A DNA stretch of 21,802 bases. Origin: a virus. Under the pieces are notes generated by a model, which was given only the letters and a program-made list of their open reading frames with translations, was not told the origin of the DNA and ran no database searches. This document shows, piece after piece, positions 6,744 through 18,369 of this stretch. A program made the translations under genes and the position numbers. Within the stretch, counting starts at the first letter, position 1. Each line of letters begins with the position of its first letter. The stretch spans positions 1 through 21,802 of the IMG/VR virus record IMGVR_UViG_3300034073_002138. One strand, 5' to 3'.

Positions 6744-7298
6744 ATGTGTATATATCACAAGCATCATATCATACCAAAACACATGGGCGGCACTGACGAC
6801 CCATCAAATATCATCGAACTCACTGTCGAAGAGCATGCCGAAGCGCATCGAAAGTTGTTCGAACAATACGGTTGTCCTGAAGATTTCGCAGCCTGGAAAG
6901 GTTTATCTGGACAAATGAATAAAGGTGACATCATAAAATTTCTACAAAGCGAAGGTTCTAAAATTTCAAACTTAGAAAGATTAGCGACCAAAACGCATAA
7001 TTTTTTAGGCGATAATAATCCATCTAGAAAAAAAGTCAAATTAGGGACTCATCACTTTCAACAAAATGTCGGGAACAGACCTGCCGATATTACACAAAGA
7101 TCTTTAGTTGCTTCGAGATTACATCATTGGCAATCTAAAAAACACGCAGAAGTTGTAGGGAAAAGAAGCAAGAAATTGATCGAAGAACAAAAACATCCTT
7201 TTGGACAAACAGTAAAATGCCCTAATTGCGGTAAACAAGGGCAAAAAAGTTCAATGAATCGATGGCATTTTTCAAATTGTTCTAGCGTCTCATCTTAG
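6744..7298 (+). CDS. Freestanding HNH homing endonuclease
   Basis: 184 aa. The N-terminus has the HNH nuclease core: YHKHHIIPKHMGGTDDPSNI (about 4-23) followed by ELTVEEHAEAHRKL. The middle contains a NUMOD3-like DNA-binding segment (GDNNPS, then LGTHHF). The C-terminus is a CPNCGKQGQKSSMNRWHFSN zinc-finger-like module with a final Cys. It is the only + strand gene, runs against the surrounding operon and overlaps the convergent gene by 17 bases, the layout of a mobile insertion. Expression is from its own late promoter with a structured leader. The target is probably a homologous intergenic region in related phages. The same 5' leader and C-terminal finger occur in the gene at 16903-17283. 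Confidence 0.85.
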   Translation: MCIYHKHHIIPKHMGGTDDPSNIIELTVEEHAEAHRKLFEQYGCPEDFAAWKGLSGQMNKGDIIKFLQSEGSKISNLERLATKTHNFLGDNNPSRKKVKLGTHHFQQNVGNRPADITQRSLVASRLHHWQSKKHAEVVGKRSKKLIEEQKHPFGQTVKCPNCGKQGQKSSMNRWHFSNCSSVSS

Positions 7299-15607: not shown

Positions 15608-16552
15608 TCACTTAAACTCGCAATCGACCATGAGTTCGGTCAAGAACGCCATAAGATTGATTTCCTGATCGGCTGCAAAGGCGGCTTGATACTGATACTT
15701 ACCAAGAAGAATAACTGCCATTGGAATCGTGGTTGGATTTAAAACGTCATATAATTTGTCGTAAATTTCGCGCATAATTCGATGAGTATCGTTGTCGGTA
15801 TTCTGGGCGACCCACTTACGAACACTTCGGAAGTCTTTCTCTTTTAAAAAGGCGACAAGTTCAGTGATTTTAAAATCGCCAATGTTAGAAAGAATACCAA
15901 TATCGATCGTACCACCAACGCTGTATCGCTGGAGTTCATTTAAAATTCTTCGATAATCGGGGAAGAACTTTGTAATCAGTTCGGCTACGACCTTCAGATC
16001 ATACGAGATCTTTTCTTCTTTAAGAATCTGCTCAACACGCTTAAGAAAAGCAGAAGCCATCTTCGCTTTCTGACCGTTCTGTAACTTGAAATCAATTACC
16101 GCACATCGAGAGTGTAGCGGTTGAATGATTCGATTTTTAAAGTTGCAAGTGAAGATAAACGAACAGTTTTTAGAAAACTCTTCGATAACGCCACGGAATG
16201 CGGCTTGAGCATTGGCAGTTAGATAGTCTGCCTCATCGATAATAATTACCTTTCTTCCTGTTCCCGTCAGAGAAACGGAGGAAGCGAACCCTTTAATCTT
16301 TACACGTAGAGTATCAATACCTGATTCATCTGAACCGTTGATAATAATATAATCACACTCAATCTCTTCACACATCGCTCGGGCAACAGTTGTCTTACCG
16401 ACACCTGCTGAACCCGAAAGGATCATGTTTGGAATTTCTTTGCGCGCTACATACTCTTGAAAGGTTTTCTTAAAGTTTTCAGGAAGGATACAATCTTCAA
16501 TAGTTTTAGGTCGATATTTTTCGACCCACAACAGTTCCACATTTTGCAACAT
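15608..16552 (-). CDS. 44: Clamp-loader large subunit gp44 (AAA+ ATPase)
   Basis: 314 aa, close to T4 gp44 (319). WVEKYRPKTIEDCILPE is the typical opening. Walker A is GSAGVGKTT (47-55), Walker B is IIIDEADYL (Asp106-Glu-Ala-Asp), and the arginine finger is in HSRCAVIDF (Arg149). The C-terminal half is the collar domain. Four copies with one gp62 bind and open the gp45 clamp using ATP. ATG 16552 has AGGGG seven bases upstream. The gene is separated from gp45 here by a DsbA-like gene, a homing-endonuclease relative and a Tat-signal protein. Confidence 0.97.
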   Translation of the reverse strand: MLQNVELLWVEKYRPKTIEDCILPENFKKTFQEYVARKEIPNMILSGSAGVGKTTVARAMCEEIECDYIIINGSDESGIDTLRVKIKGFASSVSLTGTGRKVIIIDEADYLTANAQAAFRGVIEEFSKNCSFIFTCNFKNRIIQPLHSRCAVIDFKLQNGQKAKMASAFLKRVEQILKEEKISYDLKVVAELITKFFPDYRRILNELQRYSVGGTIDIGILSNIGDFKITELVAFLKEKDFRSVRKWVAQNTDNDTHRIMREIYDKLYDVLNPTTIPMAVILLGKYQYQAAFAADQEINLMAFLTELMVDCEFK

Positions 16553-16902: not shown

Positions 16903-17283
16903 TCAATTACTCCATTGCAAAGATTTACATTTATTAAAATGATACCGATTCATATTGTTTACGCCACCAACTTTACGGCAATGAGGGCATTCAACTGTTC
17001 GGTATTCATAATCCTTCATACGTTCAACTAAAGCAAGACTAATTCTTTTTTTCGCAGAATCTGTATGAGTCTTACCCCAAAAGAAATGTTTTTCGCCAGT
17101 TCTTTCTGCCATGGGATTATTTTTACCCATAAACAGTTCATTTCCTTTATTCCATGGTTCTATGAGTGTAGAATCTTTCGGAACACAATTCAATTGTTGG
17201 TCACTGAATGAAGGGTCTTCGTGATACTCTGTATTGAATAATTTACAGAGAGCCTTATGAGTCTTATATGTATAAATAGACAT
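16903..17283 (-). CDS. Homing-endonuclease relative without a nuclease domain (NUMOD3 plus zinc finger)
   Basis: 126 aa from ATG 17283, which has AAAGGAG upstream; the longer frame to 17340 would read through the leader. LFMGKNNPMAERTG and HFFWGKTHTDSAKKRISLAL form NUMOD3-like DNA-binding repeats. VECPHCRKVGGVNNMNRYHF with a final Cys is the same finger as in the HNH endonuclease at 6744-7298 (CPNCGKQGQKSSMNRWHFSN). The N-terminal 50 residues show neither HNH nor GIY-YIG catalytic residues, although the opening MSIYTYKTHK echoes MCIYHKHHI. It may be a decayed endonuclease, or a DNA-binding protein now acting as repressor. Confidence 0.7.
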   Translation of the reverse strand: MSIYTYKTHKALCKLFNTEYHEDPSFSDQQLNCVPKDSTLIEPWNKGNELFMGKNNPMAERTGEKHFFWGKTHTDSAKKRISLALVERMKDYEYRTVECPHCRKVGGVNNMNRYHFNKCKSLQWSN

Positions 17284-17338
17284 GCTGATACTCCTTTGCA
17301 GTATTAGGGTCCCTGGGAATTGCCGTTCCGCGAGGGAC
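17284..17338 (-). promoter_or_regulatory. Structured 5' leader of the 16903-17283 gene
   Basis: On the - strand GTCCCT (17338-17333) pairs with AGGGAC (17314-17309), with an inner GGAA/TTCC stem. ATACT and AGTAT (17304-17300 and 17292-17288) form a second hairpin around AAAGGAG. Both stems match in position those before the HNH gene at 6744; the first stem has changed bases but kept pairing. Confidence 0.55.
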
Positions 17339-17343
17339 ATCTC

Positions 17344-17351
17344 TATTTATA
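17344..17351 (-). promoter_or_regulatory. T4-type late promoter TATAAATA
   Basis: An exact TATAAATA on the - strand. A start six bases downstream (17338) coincides with the first base of the leader stem. The surrounding TGTATAAATA and the following bases resemble those at 6673-6700 before the HNH gene, so promoter and leader were probably moved together with these genes. Confidence 0.65.
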
Positions 17352-17364
17352 CAAATCAAAAAGA

Positions 17365-17437
17365 AAGAGGTGGGGAAGGTGAAGTCCCATGGTGGCAGTC
17401 TGGCGGATTGTACCATTAGCAGAACGCTACACCTCTT
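17365..17437. other. Cloverleaf-like four-way inverted-repeat structure
   Basis: AAGAGGTG (17365-17372) pairs with CACCTCTT (17430-17437). Inside, and without a single unpaired base at the junction, are three hairpins: GGGA/TCCC (17373-17376, 17385-17388), ATGGT/ACCAT (17389-17393, 17412-17416) and TAGC/GCTA (17417-17420, 17426-17429). It is not a canonical tRNA: there are no linker bases, no T-loop TTCRA, and the middle loop is 18 bases. On the - strand it is followed by UCUUUUU, so it might end the gp45 operon transcript. It could also be a structured RNA or a DNA cruciform. Confidence 0.5.
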
Positions 17438-17449
17438 AGTATTATATAG

Positions 17450-17686
17450 TCACTTAGCCACGTTTTCGTAAATTTCAACGAAGTCGTTCTGCTCGGCAAC
17501 TTCTTCTTCAAAACTACGCTTGTGGTAAACTTTCGCCAGTTTACGAGCCAACTTCTTGGGAATCTCGCATTCGTCTTGCATCTTCTGAAGAATCTCTTTA
17601 ATCAGATCGCGCTCAGCCTCAATACGAGTGAGAGAGTTTGAGATTTCTTGAAGGCATCCCAAAACCTTTGCTTTATCAAGTGCCAT
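17450..17686 (-). CDS. Small helical protein, possibly DsbA-like (late transcription modulator)
   Basis: 78 aa. The N-terminal 35 residues are a charged helix or coiled coil (ISNSLTRIEAERDLIKEIL). The C-terminal KLARKLAKVYHKRSFEEEVA and FVEIYENV resemble the end of T4 DsbA, the double-stranded DNA-binding protein that modulates late promoters (YHKD..E.FEAE..E..ELYD pattern, recalled from memory). ATG 17686 overlaps the gp45 stop as TAATG. As gp45 is itself an activator of T4 late transcription, co-expression makes sense. The identification is tentative; the gene itself is secure. Confidence 0.6.
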   Translation of the reverse strand: MALDKAKVLGCLQEISNSLTRIEAERDLIKEILQKMQDECEIPKKLARKLAKVYHKRSFEEEVAEQNDFVEIYENVAK

Positions 17687-18369
17687 TATTCTTCTCCGAA
17701 GGTAGAGTTAGCGGCTTCAATTGCAATCCAATAGGTCAGATTCTTCGACTCATTATGGAACTTCGAAACACCAACTGAAGAAATCTCAACAACATATTCA
17801 TCGGGAACGACCTTAAGATTTTCGATCTTAAGAGTTGCCTGGAATTTGGTATCAGTATCGCTATCAAGAACGACCTTTGCGTCGTCTACGATTTCACCTT
17901 TAACGTCCATTGCAGCAATCGCGACTTTACCATCTTCATTACTTACAACAACGTTTGGACACTTCAAAATTGAAGCAACACTGAATACCCAATTTAAAGT
18001 TTCAGCAGGAAGTGTAAACTTCACTTCATATGCTGCAATGTTAATGCTCTTGTTTGGAGGGCAGAGAATAAGATTAGTTGCGGTGAAACGCTGACGAATC
18101 GTACCCTTACCGTTCAAACTCTTGAAGACGAGAAAGTCTTGTAGGATCTCTACTTCATTGTCGTTCTTATTCATCGACAAAAGACCAAGTGACTTATTCA
18201 AGTCATAAATTCCAAACTCATGCGGAAAGGTTTCTGCAACAGTTGCTTCTGCGAGAATTGCCTTGTTGGCGGAAATTGTTCGAAGTTTATTACCTGGCTT
18301 GACGACAATCCCACTGTTGATTGACGCAAAGTTTTTCAAAATAGTCACAGTATCATTAGAAAGTTTCAT
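17686..18369 (-). CDS. 45: Sliding clamp gp45
   Basis: 227 aa, nearly the T4 length (228). MKLSNDTVTILKNFASINSG is almost the T4 start (MKLSKDTTALLKNFATINSG), and GIYDLNKSLGLLSM matches T4 AIYDLNGFLGILSL. The C-terminal YWIAIEAANSTFGEE matches the T4 end. Three copies form the ring that tethers gp43 to DNA and, in T4, also activates late transcription. ATG 18369 has GAGG nine bases upstream and lies 14 bases inside the dNMP kinase gene. Late TATAAATA promoters downstream of this gene fit a T4-like clamp-dependent late programme. Confidence 0.97.
   Translation of the reverse strand: MKLSNDTVTILKNFASINSGIVVKPGNKLRTISANKAILAEATVAETFPHEFGIYDLNKSLGLLSMNKNDNEVEILQDFLVFKSLNGKGTIRQRFTATNLILCPPNKSINIAAYEVKFTLPAETLNWVFSVASILKCPNVVVSNEDGKVAIAAMDVKGEIVDDAKVVLDSDTDTKFQATLKIENLKVVPDEYVVEISSVGVSKFHNESKNLTYWIAIEAANSTFGEE

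Follow-up and report, generated by a model that had tools for sequence, protein, structure and literature searches.

What is the cloverleaf-like structure that lies behind the sliding clamp gene of a T4-like phage, and does it act as DNA or as RNA? The window, that is, the whole 21.8-kb stretch of DNA analyzed here, covers positions 1-21,802 of IMG/VR record IMGVR_UViG_3300034073_002138 and comes from a T4-like phage. The core gene order on its - strand is gp45, DsbA-like gene, element, NUMOD3 gene, Tat-like gene, gp44, gp62, and regA (Table 1). A sequence-only reading of the window had described the element as downstream of the gp45 operon, in a gene-free stretch between the DsbA-like gene and a late promoter. 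The gene-free position was as described; however, the element is located inside the gp45-dsbA-gp44-gp62-regA cluster, which continues past it on the same strand.

Table 1. Features of the element and its neighborhood in the window, listed in the direction of the - strand.
Feature	Position	Strand	Remark
gp45 sliding clamp	17686..18369	-	
DsbA-like transcriptional regulator of T4 type, PF11126	17450..17686	-	gene upstream of element
Whole element, four-way-junction RNA, 73 nt	17365..17437	-	strand of gp45-dsbA-gp44 cluster
P1 5' strand AAGAGGUG	17430..17437	-	pairs with 17365-17372
Arm P2, UAGC-GUUCU-GCUA	17417..17429	-	covarying stem, unconserved loop
Arm P3, stem AUGGU/ACCAU	17389..17416	-	18-nt loop L3 at 17394-17411
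L3 invariant core CCAGACUGC	17395..17403	-	antisense to initiator tRNA D-arm
Arm P4, stem GGGA/UCCC with loop L4	17373..17388	-	
L4 invariant core UCACC	17378..17382	-	CACC antisense to G6-G9 of initiator tRNA, beside L3 target
P1 3' strand CACCUCUU	17365..17372	-	
Pyrimidine/U-rich tract after P1	17352..17364	-	
T4-type late promoter TATAAATA, perfect match	17351-17344	-	
NUMOD3-bearing homing-endonuclease-like gene	16903..17340 as listed	-	
gp44 clamp loader	15608..16552	-	next core gene past element

The NUMOD3 gene directly follows the element both in the window (16903-17351 on the - strand, including the late promoter ahead of it) and in one relative, L255. A later ATG near 17284 suits the ribosome site of this gene. 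Hairpins precede the gene start, and one of them (ATACT..AGTAT) encloses the Shine-Dalgarno site. A second homing-endonuclease-like gene (phrog_655) was found at 6744-7298 of the window on the + strand, opposite to the surrounding genes. In relatives, the interval between the element and gp44 is a gene-insertion hotspot harboring many small genes, Tat-like proteins, and endonuclease-like genes.

Inspection of the fold agreed with the initial description: an outer stem of 8 bp (AAGAGGTG/CACCTCTT) encloses hairpins of 4, 5, and 4 bp with no unpaired base at the junction, and all pairs are Watson-Crick. A fifth pair is possible in the TAGC/GCTA hairpin. The folding energy was better than that of most shuffled sequences on both strands, with values of -29.7 kcal/mol on the + strand (z -3.2; 1 of 200 shuffles as good) and -21.5 kcal/mol on the - strand (z -2.1; 3 of 200 shuffles as good). 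By folding energy alone, the element is only moderately unusual, yet the structure was judged to be real because it is conserved among related phages.

Relatives were gathered by protein searches with gp45, DsbA, and gp44, and the motif itself was not used. Many of these relatives carry the same cloverleaf, built from different stems, directly after the dsbA stop. The element core was present in 80 of 152 distinct dsbA-anchored IMG/VR regions and absent in the other 72, as counted by an exact-core search that a strongly diverged copy could escape. Decayed copies were not evident: within ~160 nt of the start of the negative regions, the best partial core has two mismatches, and the model R1 gave no match in the element-less relatives searched. 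In one relative (L249), the usual stop at the end of dsbA (about position 1813 of the oriented strand) is missing and the frame enters the element, which may be real or an assembly error.

Alignment of 64 copies revealed that 97.2% of the pair cells form and that 16 of the 20 pairs show compensatory changes; the covariation score was 0.442 compared to 0.233 in shuffles (0/500). Pairing is thus conserved in relatives. Controls in which the structure was slid along the alignment gave at most 62% paired cells, and RNAalifold recovered the same four helices without guidance, with 20 pairs and a perfect four-way junction. A more divergent set showed covariation in 18 of 20 pairs and a score of 0.674 vs 0.256, in an alignment that was fitted to the model and leans towards the structure. 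The CM R1 matched the window at 17366-17436 (-) with 83 bits, the window being a member of its training set. The same model detected eight divergent copies outside its training set (L503, L505, L507, L516, L518, L519, L521, and L528) at E values of 4e-7 to 2e-11. A further model, R2, was left out because MAFFT misaligned the divergent copies. The element was never found more than once per contig: 15 of the 17 contigs searched, including contigs of 197 and 161 kb, gave one strong match, one gave a chance-level match alone, and the 178-kb contig of L023 gave none. That the element represents a new, conserved family of phage RNA is close to certain.

Searches for known families supported the view that the element is not a tRNA and that no annotated feature explains it. 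ARAGORN detected no tRNA or tmRNA in the window, the Rfam tRNA model was unmatched, and L3 is 18-20 nt long. No Rfam model (release 15, 4227 models) matched at the gathering score, and at E<=10 only unrelated RNAs appeared. Cultured phages gave no notable blastn match, and R1 found nothing in six cultured relatives. Pattern matches in bacterial genome contigs lack the structure and look like chance. Our searches of the open-access literature found no earlier description of this element, nor of any phage RNA directed against initiator tRNA.

As DNA, the structure had been proposed to extrude as a Holliday-junction-like cruciform and to serve as a substrate for endonuclease VII. As far as the sequence goes, a perfect junction could indeed extrude in supercoiled DNA. 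However, the pairing constraint on a cruciform should be the same for both strands, and in the relatives G-U pairs occupy 46 cells on the mRNA strand while A-C pairs occupy 12, part of which come from the misaligned L040 and L238. A cruciform also needs no fixed loops, yet the loop sequences are invariant, and the orientation relative to dsbA was constant in the copies examined. The cruciform is therefore hardly credible. Because of the asymmetry between G-U and A-C and the constant orientation, the element is predicted to act as RNA of the - (mRNA) strand, in the gp45-dsbA transcript, and not as DNA.

The most conserved parts of this RNA are two adjacent loops, CCAGACUGC(UC) in P3 and UCACC in P4, which are near-constant; the L3 core and L4 are preserved in every one of the 80 distinct dsbA-anchored copies. 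Arm P2, by contrast, varies among copies, as does its loop. L3 reads CCAGACUGCUC in most relatives and CCAGACUGCC in the window and some clades, and in the main clade it ends in AUCCGCCAGACUGC(U)C. Divergent members have an altered 5' half of L3 (AAGAACCAGACUGCUC, ACACUCGCCAGACUGCUC, UGCUUUUGCCAGACUGCUC) and retain CCAGACUGCUC and the P4 loop UCACC. Scans with broader patterns for other loop variants returned almost only chance matches. A likeness of the loops to 5S rRNA or the anti-Shine-Dalgarno sequence was dropped, as the divergent members lack the extra bases.

The comparison of the loops with tRNA-fMet was unplanned and was prompted by a chance literature match, a study of tRNA-fMet halves in Pseudomonas. 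The reverse complement of CCAGACUGCUC is GAGCAGUCUGG, which spans positions 10-19 of the initiator tRNA (counting 17a), and that of CACC in L4 is GGUG at positions 6-9. Together, L3 and L4 are antisense to G6-G19 of initiator tRNA-fMet (GGUG-GAGCAGUCUGG) in contiguous, antiparallel order. The base ahead of CCAG is G or A, which suits C20 or U20 of initiator tRNAs. ARAGORN located the 15-mer within initiator-type tRNA-Met(CAU) genes of Pseudomonas, Comamonas, Undibacterium, Halomonas, and others; the initiator tRNAs of enterobacteria and of the E. coli type carry GAGCAGCCUGG, with one mismatch. The exact target context was found in 136 of 145 genomes of the Undibacterium family (Burkholderiales) vs 22 of 200 Pseudomonadota, and the reversed control gave 0.

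Among the stable RNAs of Undibacterium (37 distinct tRNAs, 16S, and 23S; 7,350 nt), GAGCAGUCUGG occurs once, only in the initiator-type tRNA-Met(CAU), at position 10. Shuffled 11-mers matched any of these RNAs in 62 of 20,000 cases, and none did so together with a contiguous shuffled 4-mer (4+11); these odds are optimistic because the reference genome was picked for carrying the match and several host lineages could be tried. We estimate the odds of a chance match over several host lineages at a few per cent for the L3 11-mer alone, and perhaps at the order of 1e-4 for L3 with the adjoining L4 match.

Interaction energies, including the cost of opening the target, were calculated with a model that ignores tRNA tertiary structure and the folded, modified D-arm of the mature tRNA. 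With Undibacterium as the assumed host, each of the seven L3 variants had the initiator tRNA as its best target (-15.7 to -20.0 kcal/mol), with next-best targets at -10.3 to -13.6 kcal/mol. Shuffled loops averaged -10.1 kcal/mol (sd 2.5), and 0 of 60 were as good. Window-like copies, which lack the U of CUGCUC, pair through L3 over about 10 nt with a net energy of -16.6 and are a weaker variant. Pairing through both loops would gain about -31 kcal/mol against an opening cost of about 11. The exact target was not found outside the element in eight element-bearing phage contigs. Phage-encoded initiator-like tRNAs were found equally often in phages with and without the element, and this possible support for the pairing therefore failed. 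Many phage-encoded tRNAs were observed in L738-L745 and L808-L814, often including tRNA-Met(CAU) with a mismatched 1-72 pair (T1-T72, C1-A72, or A1-A72), an initiator-like trait that occurs with and without the element.

Taken together, the best explanation may be that the element pairs with the host initiator tRNA and thereby alters translation initiation, to which we assign a probability of roughly 0.4. Pairing with the initiator tRNA is also, tentatively, the best single explanation of the invariant loops. In the proposed mechanism, the element RNA would either form a segment of the gp45-dsbA mRNA or be released from the 3' end of that mRNA by cleavage. The four stacked helices, with no unpaired base at the junction, would bring P3 and P4 side by side. 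L3 (CCAGACUGCUC) would then pair with G10-G19 in the D-arm of the host initiator tRNA-fMet, and CACC of the L4 sequence UCACC with the adjoining G6-G9. The form bound may be the initiator tRNA itself, its 5' half, or its precursor. Once the initiator tRNA is bound, translation initiation in the infected cell would be altered. The effect could be exerted in trans or on the following gene, which usually starts 17-26 nt past the element. For T4-like phages, probably infecting Burkholderiales or similar bacteria, capture of the host initiator tRNA by the bipartite antisense loops of a four-way-junction RNA is thus a conceivable strategy, at somewhat less than even odds.

The placement of the element bears on a different explanation, in which it acts in cis as an intercistronic structure, namely a leaky terminator, an RNase-processing boundary, or a 3' exonuclease block that parts the gp45-dsbA mRNA from gp44. 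The loops would then be fixed by tertiary docking of P3 and P4, and the tRNA match would be due to chance. Consistent with this, there is a single copy per contig and the place is fixed: P1 begins 7-10 nt past the dsbA end, and 17-26 nt usually separate its other end from the following start codon, whatever the gene (gp44, small membrane proteins, Tat-like proteins, or others). In L308, L247, L073, and relatives, insertions of about 180-700 nt separate the element from dsbA. The GC-rich base helix is followed by a T-rich tract, with a mean of 6.5 T in the 12 nt after P1 compared to 4.2 in control sequence preceding Shine-Dalgarno sites. The sequence-only reading had proposed an elaborate terminator or processing signal because a U-rich tract follows on the - strand; the tract is present and would suit a weak terminator or 3'-end role, but the GC-rich hairpin with a short loop expected of a terminator is absent, as the outer stem encloses 57 nt and three hairpins. 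The U run is clear in the window, L503, and L518, whereas many copies have interrupted pyrimidine tracts (AUCUUCUCUUCGGAG) in its place, and the intrinsic-terminator scan reported none here on the - strand. Moreover, invariant loops would be superfluous in a plain barrier, and the ordered match to the tRNA is left unexplained. We consider this cis-acting role unlikely, if still a serious competitor. As for transcription from nearby, TATAAT-like sites just upstream of P1 were not above shuffles (4.30 vs 4.19), and TATAAATA-like matches exceeded shuffles mostly owing to the last codons of dsbA. In the L068/L073 group and L521/L528, P1 is preceded at a distance of 5-8 nt by an exact TATAAATA, from which a late transcript could start close to the helix; this is not general.

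Binding of a protein, of the phage or the host, or of a small molecule to the two loops could instead control the next gene or the balance of gp45 and gp44, much as other translational operators of T4 do. The invariance of both loops, carried by neighboring arms close to a start codon, would fit such a site, and T4 regulates the same cluster post-transcriptionally, e.g., through RegA on genes 44 and 45 (PMC3014915). However, the next downstream gene varies widely, the Shine-Dalgarno site lies outside the structure, no Rfam riboswitch matched, and RegA operators are unstructured (PMC3014915). An operator or ligand sensor is rather improbable, if likewise a serious competitor. The element might also be a relic, an inverted and decayed copy of a tRNA gene that inherited its initiator match and has no present pairing role. 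Its helices of about 7, 4, 5, and 4-5 bp and total of about 73 nt are tRNA-like, and L050 appears, by eye, to have tRNA genes directly after dsbA, in the usual place of the element. Such a relic is disfavored by the selection seen, that is, strong covariation and frozen loops; in addition, ARAGORN detects no tRNA, and the similarity to tRNA-fMet is limited to two loops on the opposite strand. We regard this origin as very improbable.

If the element pairs with the initiator tRNA, its closest counterparts would be kissing-loop antisense RNAs. The plasmid RNAs CopA/CopT and ColE1 RNAI/RNAII are of this kind, and their known targets are cognate RNAs of the same replicon. Like these, the element is a structured RNA with exposed, single-stranded loops complementary to a specific structured target, given the assumed reference host. 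Unlike these, it sits within a protein-coding cluster, and two neighboring loops of its four-way junction are proposed to recognize a tRNA of the host. Boxes in the RNA of the Ty1/Ty3 retrotransposons pair with the D and T arms of the initiator tRNA; these elements are eukaryotic, and the pairing primes reverse transcription. The complementarity of an mRNA to initiator tRNA arms is shared, but the Ty system has no such four-way junction, and reverse transcription is not known in T4-like phages. The tRNA cloverleaf (RF00005) resembles the element in the four helices and overall size given above, but the element lacks positions 8-9, position 26, a variable loop, and CCA, and 18-20 nt replace the anticodon loop; ARAGORN and Rfam do not recognize it. 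Like T4 intrinsic terminators and RegA operators, the element would be an RNA control point in the same replication gene cluster. RegA operators, however, are A+U-rich, lack structure, and sit at the start codon (PMC3014915); the element folds elaborately and lies ahead of the Shine-Dalgarno site. The phage Melnitz has a glutamine riboswitch on ssrA (PMC9004378), likewise a structured RNA of a T4-like aquatic phage; the element differs from it in sequence and fold.

These findings indicate a strongly supported new family of structured RNA, not represented in Rfam and discovered from raw sequence, that keeps a fixed spot in the cluster of replication genes of a widespread group of uncultured phages. 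Should the pairing prove wrong, the element would still mark a point of control between the genes for the sliding clamp and the clamp loader. If it is true, the pairing would be a new form of viral translation control, exerted by RNA and not by protein and aimed at the tRNA that every protein needs. As far as our searches show, it would be the first phage RNA aimed at the initiator tRNA and would provide a handle on translation initiation. It would also predict host range, namely bacteria with GAGCAGUCUGG initiator tRNAs (initiator tRNA carrying GCAGUCUGG).
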